A DNA stretch of 64,000 bases from Hypomesus transpacificus (taxonomy: Eukaryota > Chordata > Actinopteri > Osmeriformes > Osmeridae). Shown piece by piece: positions 29,529 to 63,597 of this stretch. The stretch is from positions 12,594,282 to 12,658,281 of the forward strand of contig NC_061062.1 in assembly GCF_021917145.1 (NCBI RefSeq), read 5' to 3'. The stretch's first letter is position 1; every line of letters begins with the position of its first letter. The position numbers and the translations under genes are program-made. The notes beneath the pieces were generated by a model, which had not been told where the DNA came from, searched no databases, and was given only the letters and a program-made list of their open reading frames with translations.

Positions 29529-29535
29529 TATAAAA
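29529..29535 (+). promoter_or_regulatory. TATA box of nkl-B
   Basis: GGGGGTATAAAAACAG lies about 85 bp upstream of the nkl-B start codon. A good consensus at a credible distance. Confidence 0.65.
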
Positions 29536-29614
29536 ACAGTAGTTTAGACTAAGGGGTCCCATCATCAGACAAACATTCACCTTAGCACTTTGTCAGCACT
29601 TCCTGCAGATCAAG

Positions 29615-31954: not shown

Positions 31955-32059
<105 letters not shown>

Positions 32060-34419: not shown

Positions 34420-34501
<82 letters not shown>

Positions 34502-35297
34502 GCCATATTACGTGCTAACATACAATACCAACAACCAAGCCTTCTTTTCTTCTTCAATGCATAAACACTCATGCATGCATGAGCATCGTACATATACACA
34601 CACGCACACACACCTGGCAACAATAGCAACACTGCTGTCTGTCAGTCCGTTTCCTGCGAGGCTCAGGTGGATCAGTGAACAGTCTTCCTGTAGAACATAA
34701 GTTGGACCAATCAGACCAATAATTTGTTCTGAAGACCTCAAAAGTCAAGATCCGATGTCAATCAAGCGTCAACACATTTCTTGAAAAAAACAAATGTGTG
34801 TGCATACGGTTATGTGTGTAAATGTACCTGAGACATGATTGTAGTGAGGTGTTCCAGAGCAGGGGGGTCCACAGCTCCACTGCATACAGCAGACAGGTGG
34901 AGGTGTGTGAGGCAGTGCAGAGGCAGCGTCTTCAGCACTAGCTCAAACCCCGTGGAGCCCAATGAATTGTGGGATAGACACACTGACTTTAGGTGCCCAT
35001 GTCCCATGCCTGTGTGAGATGGGAACTGTATGTATTTATCTACACACAACATATTATAGTACACAGTCAGTGTTACTGCTTGGATGCAAGGTCTTTAGCC
35101 AATAAGAGGGGGTATTGCTGCTCACCTGCAAGAGCCTGAGCCAGTAAGAGGCGGTGTTGCTGGAGGAAGCGTGCAGTGAGGTTGCAGGCTTGCAGGGCCA
35201 GCCGAGCCAGCAGGGGACAGGCTGACAGCAGACAGGCCAGGGCTTGGGACACACCATCCCCCAGGGGGTTCACACTCAGGTCCAGCTCCTCCAGACA
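33602..35297 (-). pseudogene. tonsl: Partial tonsl copy B: last five exons
   Basis: Duplicates of tonsl exons 24-28: 35126-35297, 34828-35009, 34614-34687, 33910-34043 and 33602-33795 (stop 33602-33604). All remain open with intact splice sites. Exon 25 has an in-frame 6-base duplication (GHGHLKS instead of GHLKS). The last exon matches the complete gene more closely, while the others match copy A, so the recent duplication junction lies inside this copy. It lacks the upstream exons and a start codon, as copy A does. Confidence 0.85.
34430..34500 (+). repeat. (CAGA)n microsatellite, expanded copy
   Basis: The same locus as 25042-25090, longer by about six units. Confidence 0.95.
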
Positions 35298-35628
35298 CTA
35301 CAGGGGAGGTGGGGAGGGAGGGGAACAAATGAGGGCAGAGAGAGGAAAGAGATGGAGGGAGAAAAAAAGGGGGGGTGGAAAGAAAGAGATAGTTGTGGAA
35401 AAGGGGTGTGTGTGAGATATAGTGCATGGCTCTGTAAGACAATGAGCAACACACTACACACTGTCCTTATGGTAAAAGAGGTTTGTCACCCCCAGCAGAG
35501 TTAGAACTCAGTAGCACCAGCCCCACCACAAACACGTCCCTCCCACACAACAGGTTCTCACAAAAGCTACCATGACACAGGAAAGGGTGGTGGTCTCTTC
35601 TGAGACAGCCACCACACTACAAACTATT

Positions 35629-35951
35629 TAGAGCTGCCAACTCTCGCGGTTTCGCCGTGTGACACAAGCATTTCAACCATTTCTCATGCTCTCATGCCAC
35701 ACCTTGTATATCTCACGCTGAAAAGGCAACGCCAAACAAGTAGCCAATCTAACGTTTTAAACAGTAACGGACGATGCGCAGGTTAACGGAGTGAAGCAAC
35801 ATTGACGCGCAAACAGCCGTGTAAACTCGCCTTGTCTCTCCCCCCACTCCATGGCGAGAGTTACATTGAGGTGGGGGGGAGTGAAGCAAGCGAAAGCTCG
35901 CCCCTCGCACCAAATCTCACGCCAAGGTTTTTGAAAAATTTGGCAGCCCTG
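35629..35951. mobile_element. Non-autonomous DNA transposon with TIRs (unit 2 copy)
   Basis: Duplicate of 26212-26534, with the same TAGAGCTGCCAA and TTGGCAGCCCTG ends and CTATT flanks. It arose by segmental duplication, not by a new insertion. Confidence 0.65.
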
Positions 35952-36891
35952 CTATTCATAATTGACACGCACCCCCACACACACCTCTATAGTGGCCATA
36001 TAAGGTCTGTGCAGAAATGCAAAGCTCCCTAGATGAGAGCAGTGGACCAGAGTGACTGGTCTAACTAGCAGGAAGCTCTGCATCAGCAATGTTTATAAAT
36101 GACTAGAGCACAACTTTCCAAAGAACTGAGGTCTCTACATAGTTGCAAGTATTTTGGGAAGTGTCTTGAGTTGTCACCTAGTGACGTGCTCTCTACAAGA
36201 TGATGACGTGCTAGCATTACATTTACAAGGTGGATGTAATGCTAGGCGAATACAATCCTTCTGATTCTGATTCTGAAAATAAAATCCTTCAGATTCTGAA
36301 AACATCAAGAGATGAGATTCTTTGAGTTTAGCTGGTGGTCCCATGTGACATTGACAGCTTTATTGTCTTTCATTTCTTACCCCTTACTAGTATTGAAAGA
36401 TAAGAAAACATTTCAGTGTTTCCCACAAAGTGATTATATTTGTGGCGGTAGGCAGGGACGGAGCCAGACGATGTAAAAAGTTGGGGCTCAGCCTAAATCT
36501 TAAAAAAAGAAATTGGATCTGAATTTTCCATTCGAATTGAACCAGCCTGAATTTTTCCGATTTGAATTTCTGATGCGCGCAAGAGTGATCGACAGTGCAT
36601 GGGTGTTCCATGCCTGATGACTAGAGGCTTTCTCTGTTTGTCTGCCATTGTGATAAGCACTCTCAGCTCACAGGCCCCAGCAGTGACAGGTGACACAATA
36701 GACATACAAGAAAGAAATAACCAACATTCTTATGGTTGATTTAAATAGGCTGCTTACCCCATAGAGCACCGGCCACGGGCGGCTGAGCTGTTAGAGTGCC
36801 CCCTTGAAGGCTTGCGTGGTACTGCGGCCCCCTGCTCTGGAGGATTCCTGGCTGCAAGAGTGTATGGCTGCAGCCTGCCGCCTCCCGTCTC

Positions 36892-37161
36892 ATGCCCTCC
36901 TGCCTCATGCCCTCCCGCCTCATGCCCTCCCGTCTCATGCCCTCCCGCCTCATGCCCTCCCGCCTCATGCCCTCCCGCCTCATACCCTCCCGTCTCATGC
37001 CCTCCCGCCTCATGCCCTCCCGCCTCATGCCCTCCCGTCTCATGCCCTCCCGCCTCATGCCCTCCCGTCTCATGCCCTCCCGCCTCATGCCCTCCCGCCT
37101 CATGCCCTCCCGTCTCATGCCCTCCCGTCTCATGTCCTCCCGTCTCATGGCCTCCCGTCTC
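36892..37161. repeat. 15-bp minisatellite, about 18 units (unit 2)
   Basis: Copy of 27475-27744 with the same number and order of unit variants. Because minisatellites normally change fast, this supports a very recent duplication (or an assembly duplicate). Confidence 0.95.
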
Positions 37162-37657
37162 ATGCCTGTACTTTTCAAAATAAAAGCTTGTCTGGTCCGC
37201 TATTTCTCCTTCCTACTTTGGTGTACGTGTTTTTTTTTTAGCCAGACAGCAAACTAAAATCCATTCTACTGCTGCTGCCTGGGAGGCCCGGTTGAGTTTA
37301 GGCGTCACAACGACAGTTGAGGTTAGGATTAGTTTAAGGCCAGGAGTCGTAGGAGTGGTCGAGGTTAAGGTTAGGCACAACCACGACGGTTGGGGGACAA
37401 TGATGGTCGGTACAGCACACCGTGCATTTTGTCACCTACGGTCTGTTCTTTTTTTTAAAGACACTGATGTGTACCTTAAGGAAAATCACAAAAAGAAACC
37501 ATCAAAGTCTGCTGCAGCCATACCCGTCTCCCTGGCTGGGCAGGCCCTGGCCGGACAACTGGCGCCCTCTGGAGTTGACCAGCAGTTCTGAGTTCGCTCA
37601 TACTAGGCCGCTGTGTCATCACCCTGCGACGATCCCCCACGCCTCTGGGATCCACGC

Positions 37658-38188
37658 ATAGAGTTAATATAACTAGAGTAAGCTACTTTTGTCTTCCAAG
37701 ATGGCGTCCCCATTCATTTCTATGAAAAGTGCTCAGTGGCGCAGTGAGGCAAGCGAAATCGCGAGACTTTCACTTCCGTGTCTTCCTGTCAAGCTTTAAA
37801 CAGTGGCTCTTTTTTTCCCTAGCTCCGAGAGCTCATGTATCGGCTATCGGCCAATGTGAACTTTTGTGCTCGTGCTCTGTTAGTATCCACCAGCACATTT
37901 GCAGGCAACTTTCATTGACTAAGCAAATAAATGGATTGCTAGTTTACCCATTTCGGATTGGTTTTAATCTTAGCAAAAATCGGGAAAAATTATTCTATGA
38001 AAAAGCTAGTAGTATGAGCCAGGTTCGAGAATCAAACAAAAATAATTGGGGGAGATAGTTTTGTAAATGTTGAATGGACTTAATAGAATAAAAACGACCG
38101 GAAGAGTCGGAAACCTAACCGTACATGCAATACCACCTACATCCACCGGGGCCGTTGCTTCAAGCCGAGGGGCGAGGGGTGGGGGCTT
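37658..38188. mobile_element. Inserted element with GGATCCACGC target duplication (unit 2)
   Basis: Duplicate of 28241-28771 with the same flanking 10-base direct repeats. Confidence 0.55.
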
Positions 38189-38259
38189 GGATCCACGCCC
38201 TCAACACTCACTTCTGGCAGCGGAAAACACACGGCACACTGTTACAGATGTTTGTGCAG

Positions 38260-38454
38260 GGCAACATCGGAGAGAAACTGGATCAGTACTGTGCTAAAAA
38301 GAAGTTCCTTTAAATTTTTTTTTGCACAACACTGATAAATAAGTACAAGGACAAGCTGATTCAATTTCTGTTACACAAAGACACTGCAAACACTTGCTGT
38401 GTCAAATTGAAGTTATGCAAAGGGACTCCTCCTAGGACCCAGCAGAGCTCTTGA
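38260..38454 (+). pseudogene. NK-lysin exon 4 remnant (unit 2)
   Basis: Copy of 28843-29037. It shares the first stop after KKKF but keeps TTA (Leu) before the last cysteine where unit 1 has TAA. The second stop in unit 1 therefore arose after the recent duplication. Confidence 0.9.
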
Positions 38455-38945
38455 ACCTCGTGGATATTTCTAATGTTTCTGGTCTGGTAATTTAGGACTA
38501 TATTTTTGCTTGAGCACTTCATAAAATGGATTGACCCTTCCCTTTTTGTTTGATTGAAACATTTGCAATATTTCTGCTTGAATTGAATGCCTATGCAACC
38601 GTCCAATACCATGTTGAATGTAAAGGTTTGACCAGATTTTGCTTATAAAAATTTAGTTTTCTACCCTCCATTGACTACCTTTCACTACCATGAATGTTTT
38701 ACTTGATTCATAGTTATCAGGTGGACATGATTATGGTATTATTGGCTAAACATATAAATATCTACACATGTTTTTTCTCTATTTGTACTTCTTAACAGCA
38801 TGAATAAGAAACCAAAATTGGTTTTGTCCATTTTGTCTGATAATAAAAGTGACACATCTTAAATGAGGGGTATTTCCCCACTTCACAGGTGTTAAACAAT
38901 GTGGGAGGTGTTGTTGTTCGTCATGTGTGGGGTCTGTGAAGGGGG

Positions 38946-38952
38946 TATAAAA
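38946..38952 (+). promoter_or_regulatory. TATA box of nkl-C
   Basis: The same promoter sequence as nkl-B, so both genes should keep the same proximal control. Confidence 0.65.
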
Positions 38953-39031
38953 ACAGTAGTTTAGACTAAGGGGTCCCATCATCAGACAAACATTCACCTT
39001 AGCACTTTGTCAGCACTTCCTGCAGATCAAG

Positions 39032-40568
39032 ATGAAAAATCTTCTGTCTCTCATTTGCCTTATCTTGGCTTTCTCAGGTGAGCACATTTTACTTCAACTG
39101 TCTTTCAAACACATTTATCCTTATACATCCATGTATAGTCTATACTTGGTTGCCCCTGATCTTGTTTTGCTTTTACCCTTATCCTGCACAGTCATGGCTG
39201 TACATGGCAGAGAGGTGAACTACCTTGGAGAGGAATGGGAATACGGTGAAGAAGCCAGAGAAGACACCACGGTAATGTCTAGAGGTGGAGGTGGCTCTCT
39301 TGAGAGAAGGTTGCATTGCTTGTTACATTTACATTTAGTCATTTAGCAGACGCTCTTATCCAGAGCAACTTGCAGTAAGTACGGTCGGGGACATTCCCCC
39401 GAGGCAAGTAGGGTGAAGTGCCTTGCCCAAGGACACAACGTCATTTGGCGCGGGAGGGAATCGATCCTGCAACCTTCTGATTACTGGCCCGATTCCCTAA
39501 CCGCTCAGCCACCTGCTGCTTGTTACCTGCAAGTCGAAATGATGTGGACCAGCACCTCCTCTAGGTCTTTAGGTAGATGCATGGATTTGAAACTCATGTC
39601 TGTGTGTTTCGTACCCTTCATTTCCCAGCTAGAAAAGGAGATGATTCCTGGAGCTTGCGGGATATGCAAGTATATTCTGAATACAGTGAAGGCACATTTG
39701 AATAGCTCTGATAATGTAAAGGTAATGTAAATACTGCACCACATAGAACTGTAGAAATTAGATGAGAATGAAACAATCAACTTCTAGCTATCAATGATAT
39801 TGCTGTATTATTTATGACTTTGGCTATGTTTACCTAAACCAACTATATTGTCCTCTTTGGGTATTTATGTCATCAGTTTGACATTTTTGTACATTTGGTC
39901 AAACGATGGTCTGATTTTTTTTTATTGCAGACTATTAATGAAAAGCTGTTGAGAAGCTGTGACCAAATCAAATTTGGAAAATCAATGTGTCGCAGTATTT
40001 GTAAGAAATACTCCAATATCTTGGTGAAGATGTTTTCCAATGACGCAGACGTGAGAACGATGTGCGTCAAGACAAAGTTCTGCAAGTAAGTGTCCTCAGG
40101 GTTAGCATGGACACAGCTGAATAATGCAAGACTATGAAAAATATGAGAAATATGAAATAAAATATGAAATAAATCCAATACCTGTGGGCCTTGCAGGACT
40201 GTAGTAAACACAACCAATCATTAAGGTCAGACCTGCACAAATTATTGGACGGCATTCAGACGGAATGCAATGATTGGACTGGCTACTTGTCTGTCTACCC
40301 CCCGGCAGTAGTCAGGTTCAGTTCTTGTGTTTTGGAGGATTTGCTTAACCCTTGTGCTGCCCTCGGGTCATTATGACCCACCTTTTGCACCACGACGGTG
40401 GGTCACATGACCCGAAGGCAAGGTTAAGGGAGGGGGTAGGATATTTTAGTTTGAATCCTTTCAAACTCAGGTTCGCAAAAGTTGCTTATCCTGTCTTTAA
40501 GTAAGTCTTATCAACATGCGTTTTGTGTGTTTTGCAGGCCGAAGCACGTTTGGGAGATCAGCCACTGA
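39032..40568 (+). CDS. NK-lysin-like antimicrobial saposin-B protein (nkl-C), duplicate of nkl-B
   Basis: Exons 39032-39077, 39192-39271, 39629-39721, 39931-40085 and 40538-40568 encode the same 134-residue precursor as nkl-B, with the same signal peptide, acidic propeptide and seven-cysteine saposin-B domain (ACGICKYIL to KTKFCK). I saw no coding difference between the two. A 3' UTR base differs (40627), and AATAAA lies at 40800. The SINE and piggyBac MITE occupy the same introns. The consequence is probably a higher dose of one peptide and not a new specificity. Function is inferred from family membership, as for nkl-B. Confidence 0.92.
39327..39516 (-). mobile_element. tRNA-derived SINE with L2-like tail, in nkl-C intron 2
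   Basis: Duplicate of the element at 29910-30099, with one visible base change in the tail region (AGAGCAACT for AGAGCGACT) and the same TGCTTGTTAC flanks. Confidence 0.88.
40345..40427. mobile_element. piggyBac-type MITE, in nkl-C intron 4
   Basis: Duplicate of 30928-31010, with the same TTAA borders and hairpin arms. Confidence 0.8.
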
Positions 40569-41371
40569 TCAGGCAGAATCCACATGGAAGAATCCTCATC
40601 CAAGTTAACAGCATGCTCACGCCACATTCTCACTATTGTGTAGCCTTTACTGATTGCTTAATTACTGCATTACGTTTCAATGCAATTTCTATGCACAATA
40701 TGTTTAATATGGACTGTAAAAAATCTTCTGGTATTCTGTTTGGCATTCTGTACTGGCCGGCCTAAACTGAATGACATGTATTAATATTTAGTACCATAAA
40801 ATAAACAATGTATTGCCTAAGTAGTGTACCTTTCGTCACGTCAAATGTGTCTCATCTATTCACATTAATACAAATTTGTGAAACATTTTCACTAATACAG
40901 GATAGATATAAAACTAAGGTAAACTGGGCCCTTGATTTCAAAAGAAGAAAAAATATGAATTCACAAACTCTCCAATCAGTTTAATAAATTATTCTATTTT
41001 TGATAGAATAGGTTAGATATTATGTATTTTCTTGCTATTTATTTCCCTGAACAAACATGAATAAAGAAACAGAAGGCCAAAAGTGGTTTGCCATACATAC
41101 CTCACCTGTTCTGTTTACTTCTGATGTGAAGAGTGATTCCTCATGGGGATTACACATCCAGGTGATGACATGTGTTTAGGAATGTGGTGCAGGCCAACAT
41201 CGGCTAAGTGTACCACCAGGTTCCACTTGAAAAGCTGAATTGCATGGAAGTTCTCTATCAGGTGATAGACAAAAGTACAACTACTAGATCAACTTTATCT
41301 ACAGAAGATTTGTAATTATTCTGCACTTTGCTAATCTCTAAAATAACACCAGTGTATCAGTTCAGTGTTTA

Positions 41372-41376
41372 TATAC

Positions 41377-41433
<57 letters not shown>
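41372..41433. repeat. (TA)n microsatellite (unit 2)
   Basis: Shorter allele of the tract at 31955-32056. A run of Ile-Tyr codons across it is not a gene. Confidence 0.95.
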
Positions 41434-41436
<3 letters not shown>

Positions 41437-42978
41437 AGAGAGGGAGAGATGAGTCAATACTGCTTTGAGGAAGACAAACATAAAATTATAGGAACTCTAC
41501 AATATAACACATCTGTGCACATTGAACTGGCTATATCATACTTACTCGCCCTTAGGGAGCATGATCATGCTAAACTATTGACTTATTGTCTTACAACATG
41601 ATGAGCCTAAAGGACCTGGGGCTGTGAGTACAATATGCGTACTTCACAGCTACAGTTTTTTCATCATTCTATTTCAGTAATAGCTGTGTCTGTCCTGTTT
41701 GTTCCTAATCACAACATATCTATCCAATCCATTCACTTTTCCTTCAACTAGCCTGTCGTATTAATCTGCTGAACTTTGATATTCTTCAATGTTGTGCTTT
41801 AATTCAAAATAACACAAATGTATGTTCTAAGAAGCACTGATGGCTCTATTCTCAAAGTGAGGAAATAAGTTTGGGTGAGGTGCTTCAAATAACCGGTGAA
41901 GTTGTTAAACCACAGAGAAGGAGATGAATGTGTCAATGCAAATATGAAACAAGAAGCCATGTCGAAAACATCTGAGAAGTGATGGCCCTTTTTGTGTTTG
42001 TTTCTCCTCCTCAGACCCACTGACTTGCCCCAACCTCAATGTTTGTTTGTTGGAAGGGTCAACAACATTTTTCAGTCATTTAATTTGTACTTAAGAATAT
42101 TATTCAGGTTGCCTTTGAACTTTAAAGAAAAAATATTAATAAAGATTTTAATAATTTTCTTAATAACATGCTTTCCTCAACTCAAACTGCTACAATCAAA
42201 AGGTCATAGAAACAAAAACAGGGAAAACAAAAAATGTTAAAACAAATATATTAAAATTGAACAAACTACTTGCAAATGGAGGCAAGTCCATGGCCAAAGA
42301 GTAAAAAATGACAAAAGTAAATCAGGTAGACCAATGAGAATGTCACAGAACAAATGTTTGTTCTGTTAACGTGTACTCAATAACTTTGAGACATTACATG
42401 TTTCTTTTTCCTTTTTGGAAGAAAAAACAACTGAAATACAGTTTTTACTTTGAGTATGATTATATACATGAATGCAGTTAATTCTGGATCTATACAATGA
42501 CGCACACAACTGGCGGGTTGTTAAAAAGGAATGTTTGTACATTTTAACATTACCTTTCTCGGATAGTATTTACAGATACATTACAAAATCATTATTTCAA
42601 GCTGAGTGAAAAAACTGTAGTCAGGTAGCAAGTTAAAACCTTGATAAGCTCCATGGCAAGGAAGTAGTTCTGTATCATGATAGAAAACAGATGCTAAAGC
42701 AATACTATCAGACTGACTTTTAATCGCTTTCTTTTTTAAAGCACCTATATATAATACAGCAGTATATAAAAATACAAAAAGACACAGACACAGGCCACCA
42801 ATCAAACAGTAGAATGAGTGGGAGAATAAGTCACACCAGGGGAGATATATCCTAGGATCGCATGAAGTCTGGAGACTACACTACACTCTTGCAGATTAGA
42901 CTTCACAGGCCAACTATTGTTTTTGGACCGTAAGCATATAAAAGTGCGGTGCAGGCTTTAGAAAGGTCCTCCTCACAG

Positions 42979-45900
42979 TCAGGGGGCGGCAGAGAGCAGA
43001 CACCTGGAGCTCACGGAGAGGAAGTATCCTCGGGGGTGCCGCTGACCCCAGGTCTGTTGTAAGGCCTCGCGGTCCAGTTTGTTGAGTCTCTGAGAACACA
43101 GACGCAGATCCTGGACCAATAAGGACAGGGCGTCCAGATCAGCAGCATCCCAGGGCCCAGCCACCTGGCAGCCTGGGAAACAGGAACAGAGGACGGAGCA
43201 TGGATCAGATGAATCAATTCATTCATTCATTATAAAGATGAGTGAGATGACTAAAGTGAGGGAAGAAACCTGCTGCTGAGTTGTACCTTGGAGGTTGAGG
43301 AGGGTTAAAGGTGGGCGGCCATCTTGAAGGCCAGACAGGATGTTGTGGAGCCCCGCTGAGGTCACTGCCGGGTTCCCTGATAGGTCCAGAGACACCAGGG
43401 AGGGGCAGACAGGAAGACACCTGTACCCAAACATGAAGAAATTTATGTTTATGTAGTATTTATGATGGATTGAATGTGTTTTAATACCTGTCTACAAACA
43501 CATTTCTCCTAGTGGGATCAATAAAATTGACTTGACTTGAGAGATGTGGACAGACAGATCATTTAAACCAGTAAGGTTCTTTCTTTTCTTTTCTTTTTTA
43601 CATTGGGAATTAACCTGTGAACAATTGATTTTACACATTCTTTCTATGTACAAAGAGACAAGAAGAGTGTAGCCGAGTCAAACCTTCAACACAGCCATTT
43701 CTGAGCAGCTCAGTAAGACACAGTACTGATGACCACATCAGTACTCACATCAGAACCCCCGACTTTGCATTATATGCTTTAGCATACAATGCCACTATCT
43801 TTCTGGATTAGCCACAAAGAACTGATGTGTGTAGATATATTATGAGGTATATGCAAGGTAGGAACATTTTAAGGAAACCTTCTAAAAGTAACAGCCTCTT
43901 CACACCAATCTGTGAGACAGTTTGAACAACACCCAGGCCAAGGACCTGACCAAGGAACTGTTTTACCTCCTACAACACTTCCCCTATATTGTGATTATAA
44001 ATACAGAGAACAAATAATCACTAGCTGAGTCCTTTGATACAGCAAATCCAGACTACGGAAAGGCCTCCAAAAAAGATCTTGCCAACGTCCTGGGATTCAA
44101 CATTATAGTGATTGCAACACTTTCTGGACAATTCTGCAGAAGTAGCCAAACGCAATTCAAATTGCAACCCTGAGATAAACAAACTCAGTCTCACTGAGGA
44201 TTAAAATGAATTCTTTCACAAAAGAACCTTTCGATCGGAGTACATGGATTCATTTACTACAGCCAAGATTTAAATAGACTCCGCTTTCGACCCACAACTT
44301 CAACACACTGGCGAACGTAAATGCGACACGCTCTAATACACACACGGACACACACCTGGCAAGAGTGGCAACACTGCTGTCTGTCAGTCCGTTTCCTGCG
44401 AGGCTCAGGTGGATCAGTGAACAGTCTTCCTGTAGAACATAAGTTGGACCAATCAGACCAAGAATCTGTTCTGAAGACCTCAAAAGTCAAGATCCGATGT
44501 CGATCAAGCGTCAACACATTTCTTGAAAAAAACAAATGTGTGTGCATACGGTTATGTGTGTAAATGTACCTGAGACATGATTGTAGTGAGGTGTTCCAGA
44601 GCAGGGGGGTCCACAGCTCCACTGCATACAGCAGACAGGTGGAGGTGTGTGAGGCAGTGCAGAGGCAGCGTCTTCAGCACTAGCTCAAACCCCGTGGAGC
44701 CCAATGAATTGTGGGATAGACACACTGACTTTAGGTGTCCCGTGCCTGTGTGAGATGGGAACTGTATGTATTTATCTACACACAAAACATACTATAGTAC
44801 ACAGTCAGTGTTACTGCTTGGATGCAAGGTCTTTAGCCAATAAGAGGGGGTATTGCTGCTCACCTGCAAGAGCCTGAGCCAGTAAGAGGCGGTGTTGCTG
44901 GAGGAAGCGTGCAGTGAGGTTGCAGGCTTGCAGGGCCAGCCGAGCCAGCAGGGGACAGGCTGACAGCAGACAGGCCAGGGCTTGGGACACACCATCCCCC
45001 AGGGGGTTCACACTCAGGTCCAGCTCCTCCAGACACTACAGGGGAGGTGGGGAGGGAGGGGAACAAATGAGGGCAGAGAGAGGAAAGAGATGGAGTAAAA
45101 AGGGGGGGGGGGGAGAAATAGATACCACCCCCAGCAGAGTTAGAACTTAGTAGCAACAGCCCCACCACAAACACATTCCTCCCACGCAGCGGGTCAGTGG
45201 ACCAGAGTGTCTAACTAGCAGGAAGCTCTGATTCAGCAATGTTTATAAATGACTAGATCACAACTTTCCAAAGAACTGAGGTCTCTACATAGTTCCTGTA
45301 TTCTGTGAAGTGTATTGAGTTGTCACCTAGTAACCTGCTCTCTTCAGGATGGTGACGTGCTAGCATTGCATTCACAACACCAAGAGATGAAATTCTTTGA
45401 GTTTAGCTGGTGATCCCATGTGACACTGTTTACTTTATTGTCTTTAATTTCTTACCCTTTACTAGTGGCGGGCCGCCACAAATAAATAAATGTATGGGAA
45501 ACACTGCATTTTTGGTACATGAACAAGCACAGTTAGCCAAACATGAACTTTACCGGAAACGCGGGTTGAGTCTGCCCTTCCAAGGCGCTAGCGGCCTTCT
45601 TAAGCCCCTCCCCCGTGATCTGATTGGAGGACACGTCTAGGAGTCGGAGACGGGGCATGGTTATCACAGCAGCGACTAGCTCGGGGAGGAGGTTGTCGTA
45701 GAGACGGTTGCCGGACAGGCGTAGCTCGGTGAGGCTGGTCTGGAGCTTGAGGGAGCGGAGGAGGGGAGCGAGGGAGGGCGGGGCCAAACTCAGACCGCAC
45801 ACAGACACAGACGCGCTGCCGTCCTGCAGCTCACACAGACGAGACACGCGCTTGTTCTCCTCTGTAGGGTCAGACACCAACACACACATTCATGATACAC

Positions 45901-48900: not shown

Positions 48901-51900
48901 ACAGGCGCAGGCTGTCCAGGGGGGTCTCACTCTGGGGAAGGGGGGGCACACACACACACAAGGTGAGGCCGAGACACACACATACTCAGATGCACACAGA
49001 AAACGTACACACACACATTCAATCCCAGGACAATTCTTCATTGTAGACAAGTAACCACACACACACATACACTCACCTTTGAGTTGCATATGGTGACGGA
49101 GGCCCCTCTCTCAATCAGCAGTCTGGCTACCTGGAAGTGGCCACAGGTGAGGGCATCGTGGAGAGGGGTCACTCCCTCACACAGAGGACCCCCAGGGTGG
49201 TTAATGTTGGCCCCGCGCTCCAGCAGCACTGCAACTATTTCTGAAAGGAAGGAGAAGGGGTGTGATATAGAGAAAAATAGGTTGTATGTTTGTGTGATTG
49301 GGTGTGTATTACTATAGCTGTGAGTATGCATTACCATGGTGTCCATGGTTGCTAGCTTCATGGAGGGGCGTCCAGCCACAGTAGTCCATGGGGTTGATGG
49401 GATGACCCTGACATAAAGAGATACACAGAGAGATTCGCAAGGTTGAAATCCAGAGGACAGAAAGAGAGATAAGGATGTATGCAGTACTGTGCAAAAGTCA
49501 TAGGCACAAAAAAAAAAAGAGTAAAACTAAAATGCTTTAATGATTTATTTTTTCTCTCTCAGATTTATACAGCCGGACAAATACAAAAGACAAAATAAAT
49601 ACTTTAGACAAGTAAAAAATCTTGTGCCTAAATCATTTGCACAGCACGGTTTATACGCATATATATCCAGTGTGTATAGAGAGAGTGGGTGGTGTAGGTA
49701 GGTCTCCTCACCTGCTCCACCAGGTACTGGACCTGCTTCAGGTTGCCGTCGATACAGGCTCTGTGGAGCGAGGTCTCACCTTTCTCATTCCTCTTGTTCC
49801 ACTGGGAGACAACAGATCAAGCCAGAGTCAGTCCCAGCTCTCACAGGGGAGAACAGCGGTACGGATTTACCAGATATTAGAAGTCGAGAGAGAAGCTTCA
49901 TGCCTGTGAACATTGGACCGATAAGACCTGTACTGGTGGCACTCACCCTGCCTGGCCTTCTCCTCCCAGTCACCATTTTATCATACTCCTCCAAGTCATC
50001 ATCTAGGAGCAGACACGAGAGAGTGGATCTGTGACTTCTTCGAGCGGAAATACTAGCAATAATTTAGGGTTGAATATTAGCCTCCAGATGTTCCTTCCGT
50101 CTATGAGGTATGGGTCCCAGCAGTAGACAAACTTAGCCAGGACACAGTACCTCCTCCTCACCTGAGTCTGAGAGAGGGATGTCACTGTCTTCTAGAGGTT
50201 CGCTGTTCTCCATCACCTCTTCCTCCTCGTCTTCCTCTCCCTCGTCCGCGCTCCAGCCCTTGGCAGCACACAGCTCCTGTAGTCGGGCCTCCGTGTCATC
50301 ACCCTGCGACGATCCCCCACGCCTCTGGGCAGCTAGCCACGCCCTCAACACTCGCTTCTGGGAGCGGAAAACACACAGAAGACTGTTACAGATGTCCATC
50401 TATGACTCGTCTGCACGATCCCGGTACAGAACATGGTACAGTGCGAAAGGCAGACATCGTTTCAACTATTAGCTGTGCGTAACGGACATACATCCCTTCA
50501 GCAGAGTGTCTATTTGAAACAGTTAGTCACAGGGAGCGACAATAATCAAATAATGTATCTCACCTGTAGTCTAGCCTGGCCAGCACTCTGGGCGCAGGTC
50601 AGGGCGCTGCTGTAACTGGAGTCGACATGATCCATGTCCAGGCCGCTCTCTTCGTGGGAGGCTGCAATGTTCATCCACGTCTTACACTCCTACGACACAC
50701 ACCAAATGTTCAAGACACACACCAAATGTTCAATAAGGTTTCAAACGTTTCCTGGTTCGGACTCCTCGATGCATGCATGTGTTAGTGACTGTGTGTATGT
50801 TTTGTGTGTGCATGTCCCAGGCCAGGCCCAGGGTTGGTGTACCTCGGTGGGGTTCCCCTGGCGCAGGGTCAGCTCCTGACGGTAGTGCTCCACAGCCATG
50901 TGGGGCTGCCTCAGGTCAGAGTAGGTAGCAGCCAGAGACACGTGGATAACAGCCAGCTCTCTTCCAGGCTTTCCCAGCGCTTCAGCACTGGACAGCTGCT
51001 CACAGACACACACACACAGACACGCACGCACATACAGGCAGGGTTTCACTGGAAAAGCCCCTCATTAACTATTAATTAAAAATAATAAACCAAGTAGATT
51101 AGAAGTTAACAACTGTGTATGAAAATGTCTGTGAGAGAGAATGTGTGTGATTCCGTTACCTGTGCCCGGTAGGCTTCCAGGGCTTTGCGGTAGCAGCCGA
51201 CCTTACAGTAAAGGTCGCCCAGCTGCTCTGCCAGCTCCACAGACTGCTGGGGATGTTGCTCCTCGCCCAGTTCCTCCCCTGCCTCCTCCAGCTGACAGCC
51301 TCGGATCGCTGTGTCAAACCACAGAGAGAGAAACAAACACACAAGATCAATCTTTTTACTGTGTACCAAATCACTAGTGTTCAGGTTGAACTCACTATCT
51401 GTCTACACCCAGCCTTACGCCACAACCCCTGAAAATGTTTTATTTGGGGGGGTTTTCTCCAGATTTTGGACTTCTCCGTCTCTCGCACCCCCTTCCCCCA
51501 AGTGCTCTGTCTCACCGTGTTTGAAGGCCCTCTTGACAGCCTCTCTGTCCACCGGCTGCTGGGAGCCCAGAGTGAAGGCCTTCTTCAGTGAACGCCTGGC
51601 TGCCACAAAGTCTCCCAGAGAGAGCTGCACCTGAACACACACACAATTCTGTAAGAAACGTTCTGTAAAAACAGAGAGAAGGAGAGATGAGAACAGCAGT
51701 TAGCAAAGTGTGAGTTCGTACTTTTCCAATGCAGTGGAAGCAATCGCTCTCACTGAATTTGTCCTTGATCTTTCGGGCACACTCCTTAGCTTGCTCCAAG
51801 CAACGCACGGCATTGGAGTGCTGCCCGTTACGGAAGTAGATGTTGCCCAGGTTGAAGTTGGCGCGGTACAAATCCTCCAGAAGCTGGTTCTTTCTACACA

Positions 51901-53289: not shown

Positions 53290-55303
53290 CTTGTCAGCAA
53301 CTAGTCTACCTGACAGCGAAATGTATCCACGTTAGCCGTGTGAGCTAGCTAGCATGCCAATAAAGCAGATACAAGAAACAAAATAACTTGATACAATGTT
53401 TACCACCGCTAGCACCTTGCTGTCCACTTCCTAATTTGACACTCTTGCGATCCACTGTTGTCACAAAGAACGATTACAAGACCAATTTTCTATTGATCAT
53501 TGGTTATTATTTCTATTCAAAACATCCTTTTCTAATGCCCCGCCAACTGATGTTTATGCGAATGACGTCAACAGGATGGGTTGCCAGGTTCTTAACAAAC
53601 ATCACCCTTGTGATCAAAGTATTTTGGAGAAAAAGCAGAAACATGCTTTTTTTGTATTCTTACCATTGGTTGATCTCCCTTTTTTAAGGTTCTGTGCTGA
53701 ATTCCTAGGATATATGTCTCAAGACCATCAAAACGACATGTCTCTTAAGAATACCGTACACAAATGTTAAAGAAGATATTCCCCTGTAGAGGTCAGTAAG
53801 TGTGCATAATTTATATATTTTGACTGTAACACGCATATCAATGTGGCCCCCAGAATCAAATGCATTTTTTATTGCGCATGAATGTGCATGAGCATGATCT
53901 CCAGCCGTATCGATAGAGAAGAAATGCAGTGAAGTCAAGCAATATTTCTCTAAATTTCAGACATCTGCTATGATTTTGAATAAGTGTGCTCCCATAGGCA
54001 TTGCAGGACTGTTATATAATCTTCATAATATCCATATGATGCATAATGCACAAACACACTCTATGGCTTAATATTGGGATCAGGTGTTGTCTAGAAATAT
54101 TGAGATATTGTTTTTAGTATCGACAAATACATGCAGGTCTTTGTATTCTATCATAGTAATTGATAGGTTGGTGATGTGGCTTTAATTTACATCACTTTTA
54201 TTCTTGTAAACTGGGTCATGATACAAATCCTCCTCAATGAAAAGATTCAAAAATACAAACATTATTTACACCAATTGTCAGATTGATGTCTATGGAACTA
54301 ACCCAAATTCATCATCTCATAATCCAACTGTTCCAGTCAGCTATAAAAAGAAAAAGAAAAAGGGGGACACAAACCTTCCATGTGTGACGTCCATGTCCCT
54401 AGCCCTTATGATTGGCATGTTCAAATAGTCAACACGTGAGAGAAAATAACAGCATGTGTTTCAGCTTTATGTGCATGCACCTATGGCATGCACAGCTGCA
54501 CCACTATATTGAGTTTCAACAGGTTGGATGTACAAGATGTATCTGTCTGGGGACAGCGAATGAAAATCAACCTCATACTGTGTATGACCTCTTTGTTGGA
54601 AGGATGTTATGTTACGTATGATATGTACTAGGTGATGTTTGTGTCATGTTTCATTGATGAGTGGTTGGTCTTTGACTGATTACCATCCCTGCATTGGATT
54701 GTGTGTCTCATTGTGACCTATAGGACTGTGCAGCGTAGTACTGTTTGTTAATTGCTAGGTCTTCTTGGAAGCACAAAGACTCTGATTTCCACTATTAAAG
54801 TCTCAGTGGGAGCAGCTAAGCCTCTCTTCCACACCAGAGGCTTCCTGTCTGTGTGAGTGATCCGGTATCTCCAACCATTGACCTCTCAAATGAGCACGCC
54901 GTATCATTATGAGGATTGGTCTGGGAGGGAGCAGCGTAGTTGAGAGCAGAGCCCAGCTGAGCGCATCAGAGCAGAGCAGAGTGAAGCAGAGCAGAGAGAG
55001 TGAAGCACATTCGCCACTGGAGGGATCAAATCTGTGCCATCTGACGCTCAAGGATTTATGGGTTTAGTCAAAATTGCTTTTTCCCACTGTGGAGATTAAG
55101 CAACGTGGGGATGTTGTTTAGCCAGACTCCAGCTACTAGCTACCGTCACTGCTACTTCTGCGTCTTATGCTGTTGATGTGTGCGGTGTCTTCTTGTCCGT
55201 CAGCCCTGAAGTTGAAGAAGAGAATGTCCCAGGACTGCAAAGCATTTTCAGCCATGCCAGGAAGTGGGTTTTGACTATCAGGAAGAGGTCTGTCTGTGTG
55301 GGA
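53290..55303. promoter_or_regulatory. Bidirectional intergenic/promoter region between tonsl (-) and gabrr1 (+)
   Basis: The two genes are divergent and about 2 kb apart. No other gene is seen. A perfect CRE palindrome TGACGTCA sits at 53563-53570, about 275 bp upstream of the tonsl start codon. The GC-richer purine-rich stretch at 54930-55010 (AGAGCAGAG repeats) probably belongs to the gabrr1 5' UTR or proximal promoter. Confidence 0.45.
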
Positions 55304-57406
55304 ATGAGCACCATGCAGGTGGATGCTGTCCTTGTGCTGATCTGTGTCTATCTGGGAGGGGTGACCGGGAAGGCTGCCCAGCAGAGGGGTCACAAGCTGG
55401 AGACCTACAAACAGAGCAGGTAAAAAAACACCAACACTCACTCTTTCTGCCTCTCTCTCCATTACCATGCCTGGTAGCTGAGATGTGGTTACTTGGCACT
55501 GTGCCTGGTGAAGACAGACCATTCACTGACTTTGACCACCAAAATACTGTTAGAACTATGCACATGATCCTTGCTTTTCTGCTGTACTTTCTATCTGCAG
55601 TAGATACATTTATGGATATTTGATCACTTTGGCTAGAAGCATCTGCTAAATGAATAGACTGTAAATGTAACACCGCAACACTGTAAAAGCACACGCAGAG
55701 AAAACTGTCATCATGAATCATATATACTCCATCATCACTTTTCTTGTTCAGTGACATTTTGTCCTTTTGTGTGTAGGCATTTAGTTTGTTTTGATTGTCA
55801 TTCTTTAATGGCAAAGGTGAATCTGGATGGCCCTGGACTGGAGCTAGCTTTACCTGATCACCTGACACTGTCCTGCCCTGTATTCTACTGTGTGTGCTGT
55901 CTCACCTGCTCTGCCCCCTCAGAACAGGGAAATCAAACAAATTCAGACAGGGGATTAGGATAGGCGAGGAAGACCTAAATCTCCATATTTATTTGTGTAC
56001 TTTGTTTGATGATGATGATGATGATGATGCAGAATTCCTTGTTGCTGATCGATGGACACAGGTGGAAATGTCTCTTGTACTTGTGTAACTTGTTGTCAGA
56101 CTGAGAGTGGAAAGCCTTCAGCTGCCCTGGTGATATAGCACCCAGCAGATCCAGGAAACAAAATACATGCAAGGTCATCAATAAATTCTCCAACAGTCAT
56201 CCTATATAAAGAGCTACAAGGGACAAGGAATGACAAGGAGGCACTTTGTATGAAACAGTATATTAGAGCCGCTTTCATAACAATGTGTTGTACCTACATA
56301 CAAAAGTATACCTCACTCACAAATATGTTGGCGTAGTAAAGTGCAAAATATATGCTGAGAAGTGGGAGCTAAATCCCACAGAACAGAATAACATCAAGGA
56401 GACTTCTGGTATAAAATTGTGATGAAGATGATAAGGTTCGCCCCTACAGTGCTGCTGGATGCCTTTAGCATCACTATCAGCTTTGAGTGATTTAGACCCA
56501 CTTAATGTATTCCAAAGGCCCTTTCATGTGGTAATCCCACACATGCCTCCTTTAGACACAGTAGGCAAGCCATCACTCTCATGTTACGGGCCCAGCGGGA
56601 TACTTTCATATCTAGAAAAGCAAACTCTCCTGTCAATCTCTTCATAGTTTGATTCTACTGATGAAATAAGTGGCTCATGGTTATGATGTCTAAAAACGTT
56701 TGTTCTCTCTAGGCCTTGGCAAATATATACTATAAACAAAAAATGCCACACTATATTCCATGTGTCCTGATAAACAATAACCTAAATCAATAGAATGTGA
56801 ACAAAGCATTTCAGATTGCTCCACTGAGTGATAGTCATTAAAAGGTTACGACCATCTTCAGCAATGATTAAGAGGACCCTCTAAATCCTCAGAAGCATGT
56901 AACACAGACTCAGACACCTAGACAGTTTGCTGCAGTACAGGCATGCTCCCCCATCCCTTACTGACATGTTTCAGGATCGGAAATCCTCTTCAGATTCAAA
57001 AGGTAAGAAAGTTAACATGTGCATAGCAATGAAAAGGAGAGGATAGAATGTCTCTTTCTCCCAGGGGCAGTCTACATCAAACCCAATGCTATAAAATCAG
57101 GTCTAAATACGATATCACCAGAAGTGTATGTGAAAACATAAGATGGAAATACCACTTATGCTTTTCCAGAGACACAGCAGAGCAGTGTACAGACAGACTG
57201 TTCTCTAGGCCAGAGAGGGGATTGGAGAGGCATTTCCGCCAAGAGGATTAGTAACCAGCTGCTGGGCTGGACAGAGAGGAGTGGCACCCTCTAAACAGCA
57301 GCCCTTGGCAGTTATCACCATGCACCCACCCCTGGGACTCCCTCTTTTTCTATCACTATCGATGAGTCTGTCAGTCAGTATCTTTTCTCTCTTTCTGTCT
57401 AATCTT

Positions 57407-57483
<77 letters not shown>

Positions 57484-60400
57484 ACTCCCTCTTTCTCTCT
57501 TTCTCCCTCTGTCCCTCAGCTCGTGACGCCTCTCAGACCTTCCCTGCCAATGTTCTGCTGCATGCCATATTCCATTAATCCATTTTAGAATTTTAGAATC
57601 TTTTTTTCTCATTTTTTCATAGACATTTTTTGATCTGTTCGTAGTTGTGACCTGGATAAGGCTGCCTAAAAGATAAGGCTACAGTTGAAACCCTTCAACT
57701 GATGCCCTGTTGATATTTTAAGCATCAAATGGTTATGATAGTAAACTAAAATAATGTTATTTTGAATGAAACAATATTTCATGTCAGTACAACTTGTTGA
57801 GGATAAAGAGGATGATGCTGAGTTAAGTCTTTACCAACATTTGGACCACTAAATATGGATGCAGTGCTAGCAGGTTTAGCAGATTGTGTGTCACTACCTT
57901 AAGGAAAGAACATCCATGTGTTTTTTCATGAACAGGTCAAGGAGAGAAACATCCAGAATGGAGGGAGGAGGAGGTCACAAGACAGGAAGGTCAGACCTTC
58001 ACGTGCTAAAACATGGATTGACTTTTAACTAGAGGCCTGCAAACGTTTCACTGATGTAAAAACAACAAACAAAGAAAACACATTTGAAGGAAATTAGGAA
58101 TTTAAAGTTAATCCTTCAGAATCAAATCTCGTTCATGTCATGACACTAAAATGATTACTGACTCTTTCCACAGCCCTATTCTGAAGAGAAGTTCAGACAT
58201 GACTAAATCTCCAATGACAAAGTCGGAGCAGCTGCTGAGGATAGACGACCATGACTTCACCATGAGACCAGCATTTGGAGGTAACGATGTCACACCAATA
58301 GCCCTTAAGTCTGTATGTCATATTTCTTCTCATGAAATAACTGTAGCAATAAGATTAAATACACAATTTGTTAACCCGAGTTTAGATGTTTTAAACAACA
58401 ACTTTGCCCACCATTTTTATTTTATATATTTTTTTAAATGGATGATGGTAATAAGATGTGGATAAGAGAAATGTACCTCACAAGATGCTTCTATTTAACA
58501 CATTTCAATGACAGACTGCTAGAGAAAACAGCTATGTTGACTACGAAATTCAGATGAAAAGGTGGATTTACTGTTGGTTACCCCTTGTAAATAGCTCGAT
58601 GTGAAGTGCTACCCGCAAATCAAGTCTGTTTGGATGTATCTTTTCAACATACTGTACTTAGTGTGTTCATTATGGGTTTAGCACTGTATGTGAATGCAGT
58701 CTCCATATGCTCTGTTCATTTCATCACTCAACCAATGGCTTGGTCAATCACCATCAGGGTTGGAAGTGGTTTTAAAACCATTTCACCACTCTCTAGCAGG
58801 ACTCTTAATGACACCAACATCACAATCTGTACATGCATTTTTCTCCCAAGTACAGTACATGGTTTGTGTACACAATAATTGCTGGTCCAGTGTGTTTTTA
58901 GTTCTATGTTTGCTGTAAAGGGATTTGGTTCTTCTGTGGCTCCAAGCAGGATTAAAGGAAAGATAGCTCTGTGCTCCATCCTGCTGTACTGTATTACATA
59001 GAGGGGACTGTAATGGCTTGTTCTTGTGAAATATGTTCATGTTTTGCATGCTCCATTTCTTTATTTACACTTGAGGCCAAACATAAAGTCCCCACCATCT
59101 GGGTAGCTTAGCTCAAAGGATGAATTATTTGTTGACACTTTATGAGCCTTTAATTCGCAGAACGTGATATTGTGGTTGAGAACACATTTAATGTCAGTTT
59201 TATATCTAAATGAGGGTACTTTATATATATTTGGTTCAGTTGTGCATACATTCTGTTTATACATACTGTATTCTGAATCCAATCAGAATTGCAGACTTCA
59301 CACTCAGAATGACCCTCTTTAATTTGAGACCAGAGAGACCTCAATGGCCAGCTCTTAAATGTGAAATCTGTTGTAAGAAGAAAAAAAATCACTGTAAAGA
59401 ATCCAGATGCTAGGAGGCTGCAGCAACTTTGATCCATTGTGACCTAATTGTATTTGTGTCGCACGGCAGAGGATAGAGAGGAGAGGCTGAAATAGGTCAA
59501 AAATAGAATCTAGATCCATGATGCCACAAGCACGGAGCCTGTTCCCTGAAAACCTGCTCGCTATTTGTCTGTGTCTAAAATAGATTTAATACTATGAATT
59601 TTATAAAAGCCATTGTGAATCCTGTTGCTGAACACTCCACCATCAGTCTGACAACTAATGCATTTTTACTGGCCTGTAGCTGAAAAACTTCCAAGTGTTG
59701 TTATTTTTTAATAAGACATGCAACTGGTCTGTCAGTGCAGAAATGGCAGTTATTTGGTCTTTGAAGAAGTATTTATCTTCTTCGTCTGTATCATTTTAGG
59801 TCCCCCTATTCCAGTCGGAGTAGATGTCCAGGTGGAAAGTCTTGACACAATCTCAGAAGTGGACATGGTACATGGGACATAATTATCTTGCTAGCTCTCT
59901 TTTATATTAACTGAAAACATCTGAAAAATACATTAATCTATGTTTCAACCTCAAGCGGCCAAAGTACGTCAGTAAGTCATGCACATATCCCAAGAATGCC
60001 CTTTCTGACTTCCTCTCTCTGCTGTAGGACTTCACCATGACGCTGTACCTGCGCCACTACTGGAAGGACGAGCGCCTCTCCTTCCCCAGCACCAACAATC
60101 AGAGCATGACCTTCGACAGCCGGCTGGCCAAGAAGATCTGGGTGCCAGACATGTTCTTTGTCCACTCCAAGAGGTCCTTCATTCACGACACCACCACAGA
60201 AAATGTCATGCTGAGGGTCCATCCCGACGGAAACGTGCTGTACAGTTTGAGGTAAGGCCAACTTGGCAGCCTTTACATTTTACATACATACTGTATGTAG
60301 TATATTTAAACACTGTTGTAGATATGTAAAGTACATACATGTTTACATATCAGTCGACTGGAATTCTACTGTTTGTCTGTAACCATAGAGACTAGTACTT

Positions 60401-63400
60401 AGCAAGAATTTATCACAACAGTAGATACAAGGTCACTGTGTGTTCAGTTATTGTTAGGGATATTAGTGTACCAGATGGACAAGCTTGTTGTAATCGGGAG
60501 TGAATGCCAACAAACACTCTCTCCTCTCGTCTGCCAGACGTTGCCACTCAACAGATGTAATCAAAGTCAAAGTGTAAACAAGGAGTCAGCCAGGATTGTG
60601 ACCTTGTGGTCACGCACAGATCACTGATCTGTTTGAAGAGAGCATGTTTGTAAAAATGCTCAAAATGAATCTGTCTGCCATCAATCTGTCTCAACAAGAA
60701 CCGCTGGCACCAGGATGTGTTTGCTAATGTGTTTACTGATGATAATAGGTCTATTTATTTAAGAGACGGGCTTCAAATTAAAATCGTGGAATGATTAAAA
60801 CAAATGATAAAACACTAGGTTACCAAGAACTGTAGGTAGTTTGTCAGACCAGAGCTGGGTCAGATAATGATCTGTCACATCCATGTGATCTGATCATGTT
60901 CTTCTTGTGTTTCCAGAATCACAGCCATGTGATCTGATCATGTTCTTCTTGTGTTTCCAGAATCACAGCCATGTGATCTGATCATGTTCTTCTTGTGTTT
61001 CCAGAATCACAGCCATGTGATCTGATCATGTTCTTCTTGTGTTTCCAGAATCACAGCCATGTGATCTGATCATGTTCTTCTTGTGTTTCCAGAATCACAG
61101 CCATGTGATCTGATCATGTTCTTCTTGTGTTTCCAGAATCACAGCCATGTGATCTGATCATGTTCTTCTTGTGTTTCCAGAATCACAGCCATGTGATCTG
61201 ATCATGTTCTTCTTGTGTTTCCAGAATCACAGCCATGTGATCTGATCATGTTCTTCTTGTGTTTCCAGAATCACAGCCATGTGATCTGATCATGTTCTTC
61301 TTGTGTTTCCAGAATCACAGCCATGTGATCTGATCATGTTCTTCTTGTGTTTCCAGAATCACAGCCATGTGATCTGATCATGTTCTTCTTGTGTTTCCAG
61401 AATCACAGCCATGTGATCTGATCATGTTCTTCTTGTGTTTCCAGAATCACAGCCATGTGATCTGATCATGTTCTTCTTGTGTTTCCAGAATCACAGTCAC
61501 AAGCATGTGCAACATGGACCTGAGTCGTTTCCCACTAGACACTCAGACGTGTTCCCTGGAGATAGAGAGCTGTGAGTGCTTTTAATTAATCAATTACCTA
61601 ACTGCATTGATCACTTTAGGGTCACTATTTGGTCAATTACAGCGTTGTCTAGTTCAAATGCAAACTTTGCTTAATCTCACCGTACAAGGCCTCATGCAAT
61701 ATATACCTAGCCATACGTTTAGATTAAGATTTTAAAAGTCTATTCAGATCAAATCTAAATCCTTTTCAGATAATATATTGTACAATATCACACACCGATA
61801 GCTGATGATAGTAATCTGAGCGAGTTTCTCCCTAGATGCATACACGGATGACGATCTGATGCTGTACTGGAAGAAAGGGAACGAGTCATTAAACACAGAC
61901 GAAAAGATCTCTCTCTCCCAGTTCCTCATCCAGAAATTTCACACCACCACCAAGCTGGCTTTCTACAGCAGCACAGGTACACCCCAATTCACCTTCACTC
62001 GGAACTGTGGACACAAAATACATTACCTGTGGATCAGTAATCCACAGTTCTCCCTGTGGGATTTAAGAAACTTGAATAGAACCATATCATTGTTTAAATG
62101 TTTTATTCTAAGAATGTCCAGTGTATTACAAAACAGAAACACTCCTTCCTGTATTCATGTGTCATCCTCTCTCCCACCCCAGGCTGGTACAACCGTCTGT
62201 ACATTCACTTCACCCTGCGGCGCCACATCTTCTTCTTCCTGCTCCAGACCTACTTTCCCGCCACCCTCATGGTCATGCTGTCCTGGGTGTCCTTCTGGAT
62301 CGACCGCAGGGCTGTGCCCGCCAGGGTCCCTCTGGGTAGGACACCCTCCCCGCTCTCAGGCTTTGGACAGGTCTCCTAAGAAAGCTTGGTAGCATTAAGT
62401 GGATAGATGTTACCACTTGGTAACCTTGAGCCTAAGAATGAGCTACTGTAGAAGAGTGCTGCACCATCATTTGAGCTGTATTTTCATTAAGATCACCTAC
62501 CTTACGGTATACTGCCAAACTTGTCGAATAGTCCTCGTTTCTCCACTGCCTGTCTATCTCAGGGATCACCACCGTGCTGACCATGTCCACCATCATCACC
62601 GGGGTGAATGCCTCTATGCCCAGGGTGTCCTACATTAAGGCGGTGGACATCTACCTGTGGGTCAGTTTTGTCTTCGTCTTCCTCTCCGTCATAGAGTACG
62701 CAGCCGTCAATTACCTCTCAACTGTACAGGAGAGGAAAGAGAGGAAACTAAGGGAGAGGGTGAGTGGAAAAAATATTTTGTATTCGTCATGTACTTCCTC
62801 CAAGTTAATTTATTGAACTGTTGAATTGATCTGGATGTTGTCATGATTGCGAAAAGTAGTTTTTCAACAGTTGACATGTTTTCCCCTTACATGCTTTCTA
62901 GGGAAAACGTGATATGAATCTGATTTTCCAAAAAACGATATTAGTCTGGTCAAATGTATTTAAGTGTTATTATGAGGATTTATTTTTAGGTTTGCATCTG
63001 GGGTGCAATGTTGCTCAAGTTAAGTTTCTTCCATCTGCCGTATTTTCGCGGCATATGGAGCTAAACTGATTATGTTGCCTGAAGAAGTAAATTTTCCTCA
63101 CAAACATCCTATTAGAACTTATCCTCATGTGATGCCCTAGTTAAAAAATCTTAAGGAAGTAGATGAGTCCCTTCAAGTCCTCAGATTTATGAAAAATGTT
63201 GCCTGTTAAAAGTTATCATCTACCTCCTGTCTCCCTCAACAACATAAACAAATACACATACTGTATATAAAACACATTTTCTTCCTTTTTGCAGTTGCCA
63301 TGTACCTGCGGCATTGGCAACCCTGACGATATGATGACAGACCCCCAGATCACAGGCTACACCACCATGGAGGTCAACGCCACAAGGAATTATGGGATGC

Positions 63401-63597
63401 CGGAGAACGGCAGCCGCCAGGAGCGGATGCTGGCCCAGGTGGCGCTGGGGGACCCTCAGATCACGGGTCAGGTGAGGAGCTCCAGAGGATACGTCAACAT
63501 CTGGATTGACACCCATGCCATAGACAAGTACTCAAGGGTCATCTTCCCAGGGGCCTACGCTCTCTTCAACATTGTCTACTGGTCCATATACTGCTAA
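55304..63597 (+). CDS. gabrr1: GABA-A receptor rho subunit, most like rho1
   Basis: Ten exons, all phases closing, 481 residues: 55304-55419, 57936-57989, 58174-58280, 59800-59867, 60028-60251, 61489-61571, 61836-61976, 62183-62335, 62563-62759 and 63295-63597 (stop TAA 63595-63597). The N-terminus is a signal peptide ([19 protein letters not shown]; an ATG three codons later is an alternative start). The ligand-binding domain has [15 protein letters not shown] and the 15-residue Cys-loop [16 protein letters not shown]1 begins [19 protein letters not shown]2 has [13 protein letters not shown], and the proline in VPLG is found in rho1, where rho2 and rho3 have serine. M3 has [18 protein letters not shown], followed by a cytoplasmic loop and M4. 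Length agrees with human rho1 (479). Rho subunits form homopentameric GABA-gated chloride channels in retina. The acceptor of exon 6 is the last of 14 tandem copies. Confidence 0.95.
55616..55674 (+). mobile_element. Degenerate L2-like tail in gabrr1 intron 1
   Basis: GAAGCATCTGCTAAATGAAT followed by TGTAAATGTAAC fits the L2/SINE tail consensus with several changes. Confidence 0.45.
56008..56029 (+). repeat. (GAT)n microsatellite in gabrr1 intron 1
   Basis: About seven GAT units. Confidence 0.9.
57411..57478 (+). repeat. (CT)n microsatellite in gabrr1 intron 1
   Basis: An almost pure CT run of about 68 bp within a wider pyrimidine-rich stretch up to 57520. The open frames on both strands (SLSLSL, ERERER) are compositional. 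Confidence 0.95.
60881..61488 (+). repeat. gabrr1: 44-bp minisatellite of reiterated 3' splice sites upstream of gabrr1 exon 6
   Basis: A 44-bp unit is repeated without visible change. Each unit has a branch-point-like CTGATCA, the pyrimidine tract TTCTTCTTGTGTTTCCAG and then AATCACAG, which equals the first eight bases of exon 6. AG dinucleotides recur from 60915-60916 to 61487-61488, a span of 572 bases or 13 periods, giving 14 acceptor copies. Only the last continues into real coding sequence (AATCACAGTCACAAGCATG). Splicing to any earlier copy would put TGA in frame five codons later (ATC ACA GCC ATG TGA). Confidence 0.95.

Follow-up and report, generated by a model that had tools for sequence, protein, structure and literature searches.

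How does a gene come to carry fourteen identical 3' splice sites in a row before one of its exons, and how is the right one used? The question is raised by gabrr1 of Hypomesus transpacificus in the window (the whole stretch of 64,000 nucleotides analysed here). An earlier note on this DNA had described fourteen tandem 44-bp copies of near-equivalent acceptors in a span, 60881-61571, that comprises a repeat array plus exon 6. Comparison of the sequence with itself at a period of 44 bears the count out: there are 14.0 exact copies with zero mismatches in 616 bp, identity is unbroken over 572 bases (60881..61452), and TRF reports 14.1 copies with a score of 1237. Fourteen identical 44-mers are far beyond chance. 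The unit reads CCATGTGATCTGATCATGTTCTTCTTGTGTTTCCAG followed by AATCACAG, with the splice junction between the two parts, and its content is as first proposed, with a CTGAT that resembles a branch point, a pyrimidine tract, CAG, and the opening 8 bases of exon 6. CTGAT fits YTNAY, the branch-point consensus, and 14 of the 17 positions from -20 to -4 are pyrimidines; the five other gabrr1 acceptors scored have 11 to 15 of 17. The last bases of the acceptor AGs fall at 60916+44n (n=0-13), with 61488 for the final one, and "near-equivalent" turns out to be an understatement, as all fourteen are exactly identical from the start of the unit to exon base +8. A second AG in every unit, 8 nt into the exon part, brings the total to 28, and intron 5 has an extra acceptor-like YAG upstream of the array at 60537 (15/17 pyrimidines). 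The AGs of the array alternate at distances of 8 and 36 nt, not 3 nt, and thus are not NAGNAG tandem acceptors; nor are they recursive (zero-length exon) sites of the form AG/GTRAGT, because every unit reads AG/AATCAC.

The assignment of the gene to gabrr1, which encodes rho1, was confirmed by protein and structure comparison and by tblastn. Exons 5 to 10, when joined, give an open frame of 366 residues; among the best 120 of 1979 protein matches to it, the top ones are teleost rho-1 subunits, led by Aplochiton taeniatus rho1 (95% identity over the 366-residue query), with the other nine of the top ten at 91-94%. The top solved structure is human rho-1 (8op9, E 7.5e-200), and delta and beta-3 subunit structures follow far behind at about 1e-92. 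Searches by tblastn with three fish rho-1 proteins placed exons at about 55300-63591, and splicing at GT/AG signals can give a complete frame of 463 residues that no stop or frameshift interrupts. Two alternative acceptors of the exon near 58120-58280 likewise keep the frame open, with 481 and 458 residues, and the model may lack a short N-terminal exon near 57931-58017. Because the rho1 frame is open and 95% identical to that of Aplochiton, a functional acceptor has presumably been retained. Upstream of gabrr1, on the minus strand, 49038-49526 holds an ankyrin-repeat frame (one of the 10 of 52 reading frames that were scanned), which we take to be possibly ankrd6, a neighbour of GABRR1 in human. 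Coordinates are collected in the table.

Table. Positions, within the window, of gabrr1 and of the repeat array at its intron 5/exon 6 boundary.
Feature	Position	Strand	Basis
gabrr1 coding span, 463-aa open frame	55304..63597	+	protein comparison, tblastn, exon model
gabrr1 exon 5, 224 bp	60028..60251	+	translation, tblastn
gabrr1 intron 5, 1237 bp, the array making up roughly half	60252..61488	+	intron scan
inverted repeat TCACAT-CC-ATGTGA at the left edge of the array	60875..60888	+	sequence
minisatellite, 14.0 exact copies of CCATGTGATCTGATCATGTTCTTCTTGTGTTTCCAGAATCACAG (44 bp)	60881..61496	+	period-44 identity, TRF
first of 14 acceptor AGs, spacing 44 bp	60915..60916	+	sequence
fourteenth acceptor AG, the only one giving the rho1 frame	61487..61488	+	translation of acceptor choices
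gabrr1 exon 6, 83 bp, first 8 bases within the last repeat unit, donor GTGAGT	61489..61571	+	translation, tblastn

The array appears to be a local product. A 110-base query across its left edge gave 13 overlapping matches in the assembly, all at the gabrr1 locus, and none elsewhere that would mark the unit as a dispersed repeat or transposon, in a search that skips simple repeats and very common words. A protein search found four further rho-like loci in the genome (L031 to L034), and an acceptor array is absent from the intron 5/exon 6 boundary in all four. Elsewhere in this intron a single further YAG with 13 or more pyrimidines out of 17 is present in L031 and likewise in L033, and none in L032 or L034; TRF detected two minor repeats in L033 and, in L034, only a GA-rich repeat distant from the acceptor. 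Because the rho paralogues lack the array, a single acceptor is most likely the ancestral state.

As to age, the claim of a very recent expansion stands in a broader form: since the 14 copies show no difference, either the expansion was recent or the copies were strongly homogenised. Zero mutations in 572 repeated bases bound the age at roughly 0.26-1.3 million generations (95% bound for zero events, at assumed rates of 2e-8 to 4e-9 per base), a bound that is void under homogenisation. The ends of the unit might be accounted for by a duplication primed by a 5-base homology: TCACA stands immediately left of the first unit (60875-60879), within the inverted repeat, and again in the exon start at 60919-60923 (copy 1) and 61491-61495 (copy 14). 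The left flank may also be an older relic of exon 6, as 60875-60887 matches the exon start at 11 of 13 bases, but this is suggestive only, the match being equalled by 15 of 1000 shuffles and by 2 of 88 other 60-bp windows. Another possible mark of the array that we considered was the replacement of valine by isoleucine where the exon begins. Among the best 120 of 1979 matches, a pattern fitted 115 proteins, 103 of them with RVTV and 12 with RITV (5 of the 120 were unmatched), a plain text search found RITV in 13 of the 120, and the idea was dropped, RITV being not unusual among the matches listed.

To see how common such arrays are, we ran TRF on twenty 10-kb stretches (3.00-3.01 Mb of contigs C1-C20; 192,110 non-N bases) of the assembly, which has 437 Mb in 376 contigs. 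Eight minisatellites with at least 4 copies and at least 90% matches were detected, five of them in a single stretch, C9:3000001-3010000, which is a dense cluster within 10 kb. Three of the eight combine units of at least 25 bp with 10 or more copies and matches of 94% or better, and two of these belong to the same cluster: a 38-bp unit in 19 copies at 99% and another 38-bp unit in 22 copies at 96%. Under random placement, about 100-170 such arrays would lie over 3' splice sites genome-wide, a rough extrapolation from three clustered arrays that assumes 150,000-250,000 introns. As large minisatellites are frequent in this small sample, no selection for the gabrr1 array need be invoked; this suggests that its origin needs no special explanation and that the surprise, if any, is its survival. 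A sampled array of a 42-mer with CAG in the unit (L024) was rejected as a second boundary array, because by eye it looks like minus-strand coding sequence.

The perfect identity of the copies, together with a copy number that comes from the assembly alone, could also indicate an assembly artefact or a wrong count. We regard this as improbable. Assemblers usually collapse such arrays rather than create them, the contigs are large (C3 has 15.7 Mb), and the 19-copy array of the sample shows that repeats of similar size and identity exist in this genome. The window has other repeats as well. Segments 23560-34232 and 32955-43618 form a tandem segmental duplication, either real or produced in assembly, with a period of about 9.4 kb and 98.1% identity; each full copy contains a 15-bp minisatellite (CCTCCCGCCTCATGC, 19 copies), and a further partial copy lies near 44336-45124 (96.6-97.5%). 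A long pyrimidine-rich CTCCTCC tandem array (115 copies) occupies 584-1403, and a reverse-transcriptase frame at 15964-16959 (RVT_1, with an ALKBH8_N match downstream; also from the 10 of 52 frames scanned) is probably a LINE fragment.

The choice of acceptor has sharp consequences for the product. The thirteen upstream acceptors all lead to ...LYSLRITAM and a stop, and only the fourteenth leads to rho1, in agreement with the premature stop predicted in the earlier note. The stop lies just ahead of the first Cys-loop cysteine and several exon junctions before the last; the usual criterion for nonsense-mediated decay (NMD) is the 50-nt rule, and transcripts from upstream acceptors are therefore expected to be degraded. 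Use of the AG 8 bases downstream of an acceptor breaks the frame at all 14 places. Exon 6 is 83 nt long from the last acceptor and 127 to 655 nt from the other thirteen; copies 10-13 yield exons of 259-127 nt, which is still an acceptable size.

With all sequence shared as far as exon base +8, the acceptors can be told apart only by their position and by what lies downstream. What follows the last acceptor is an 83-nt exon with 52% purines, whereas the other thirteen are followed by more 44-nt units with 39% purines and additional acceptor signals. RNA structure was considered as the selector and rejected. Compared with 20 shuffles, the fold of the 721-nt transcript has z=-5.06, but in 10 of 60 trials shuffled units gave an array no less stable than the 14-unit array, and the apparent stability is largely due to repetition. 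In the predicted structure, openness does not single out the last acceptor: the unpaired probability is 0.47 for its AG (0.10-0.64 in the other 13 copies), 0.34 for its pyrimidine tract (0.31-0.49), and 0.20 for its branch-point-like site (0.21-0.39), although exon bases +1 to +16 after it are predicted to be more open (0.42 versus 0.23-0.30). Each unit also has a GT 12 nt past the AG, in CAT/GTGATC, which by a crude count matches MAGGTRAGT at 6 of 9 positions, as do the gabrr1 donors of exons 6 and 7 (exon 8, 5 of 9). By score it could be a weak donor; it has no G at +5, the exon it bounds would measure just 12 nt, and it is unlikely to act as a decoy 5' splice site. Rfam has no match in 60000-62000, and the one GGG in 60851-61571, at 60857, is outside the units.

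Repeats of this kind are known from other genomes. In amphioxus, the cited passages describe tandem repeats across intron/exon boundaries, termed "mirages," in Adh3 and globins (PMC3087553) and also in TnC and, imperfectly, PGBD5 (PMC3902484); according to these authors, regular splicing seems undisturbed and lengths are unstable, with Adh3 and BflGb6 varying in length (PMC3087553, PMC3902484). As described there, the mirages of Adh3, BflGb6/BflGb9, TnC, and PGBD5 resemble the gabrr1 array in spanning a boundary and in having AG/GT signals in many units. In gabrr1, too, the intron/exon boundary lies inside the repeat unit, and copy 14 alone, at the edge, is continuous with the real exon. The gabrr1 array differs from those accounts in belonging to a vertebrate gene and in its 14 copies of 44 bp with zero divergence; BflGb6 has units of 150-160 bp, 6 and 3 in two haplotypes, that are 81-100% identical, and the PGBD5 repeats are imperfect.

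In human CBS 844ins68 the intron 7/exon 8 junction is present twice, giving two splice sites, of which the distal one is reported to be strongly favoured, and an inverted repeat flanks the insertion site of c.844_845ins68 (PMC2630376, passages cited). A whole 3' splice site with the exon start is duplicated in gabrr1 as well, but CBS, as described, has one 68-bp duplication and gabrr1 has 14 copies of 44 bp. The GGG runs of CBS 844ins68 are part of an hnRNP H element that favours the distal site, and this element is missing from the gabrr1 units. In rainbow trout, the first 15-17 nt of irak3 exon 5 occur four times in intron 4, just upstream of exon 5 (PMC6763605); this is again a teleost exon start repeated directly upstream of its exon, but the copies are four and short, and the cited passage does not state that each holds a whole acceptor. 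Human segmental-duplication paralogues have minisatellites at exon-intron boundaries (PMC2812944), which likewise alter gene structure but, in the passage cited, are tied to new introns and to alternative transcripts of recent paralogues. A designed library in human cells, with tandem 3' splice sites 2-59 nt apart, showed no preference for either order where both sites had the consensus sequence (PMC6783452, passage cited). The cited passages of PMC7065041 and PMC2688266 hold nothing on the tandem-acceptor question. Searches of open-licence papers for this kind of repeat gave none that names gabrr1, by which we do not claim that the array is unreported. The gabrr1 array is a large, apparently recent, and clean example of a repeat kind that is already known.

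We consider it probable that the array is such a mirage, a recently expanded boundary-spanning minisatellite whose last acceptor is mostly used and which requires no selected function. A 44-bp segment that by chance held an entire 3' splice site, along with the opening 8 bases of exon 6, would have been duplicated in tandem, and the duplicate would then have expanded to 14 copies, recently or with enough homogenisation to keep them identical. Exon definition may pair the exon 6 donor with the nearest acceptor, giving the 83-nt exon; the alternative exons would carry internal pyrimidine tracts and branch-point-like sequences. Most mRNA would use the last acceptor, the other thirteen would behave as intron, and any leak would end in the stop after ITAM and be expected to undergo NMD. 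Predominant use of the last acceptor is the likeliest outcome, possibly with leakage to NMD-prone forms, and the array probably varies in length between alleles. On the other hand, predicted structure gives the last acceptor no greater accessibility, copies 10-13 would give exons of acceptable size, and the units have no GGG runs. Nor does distal use follow automatically, and a leak is plausible, because the cited passage on the designed library reports no order preference.

The same observations leave room for a splicing rheostat, in which identical acceptors would compete, NMD would take a share of the transcripts that depends on copy number, and rho1 output would follow allele length, whether neutrally or under selection. 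Where the earlier note has the gene obliged to enforce the most distal acceptor, for example through exonic enhancers, or else to tune rho1 by NMD, we would say at most that it may do so. The acceptors are indeed identical, each upstream one leads to a stop well ahead of the last exon junction, and consensus tandem acceptors had no intrinsic order preference in the library passage (PMC6783452); but the amphioxus and CBS precedents, as far as cited, point to ordinary mRNA, and the 10 of 60 shuffled-unit trials give no sign of RNA design. We therefore hold a rheostat to be unlikely. A damaging allele, in which exon 6 splicing is largely disrupted, gabrr1 is hypomorphic in this individual, and other rho genes cover for it, is as improbable as an assembly artefact: thirteen stop-leading acceptors do precede the correct one, and the genome has its four other rho-like loci, but the modelled gabrr1 exons are intact, and the precedents, in the passages cited, tolerate such arrays.

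In this array a minisatellite has taken over an acceptor of a conserved vertebrate neurotransmitter-receptor gene, and the first eight bases of an exon are locked in with it. Still less likely than the rheostat itself, in our view, is that fish with differing acceptor numbers send differing fractions of rho1 transcripts to NMD, so that a heritable level of rho receptor would be set by minisatellite length. On acceptor choice the precedents, as cited, disagree: amphioxus and CBS point to normal or distal splicing, whereas the designed library shows no order preference. With fourteen complete 3' splice sites that are identical and evenly spaced, the effect of position in this choice can be separated from that of sequence, and the gabrr1 array is thus a natural experiment in how cells choose among identical splice sites.
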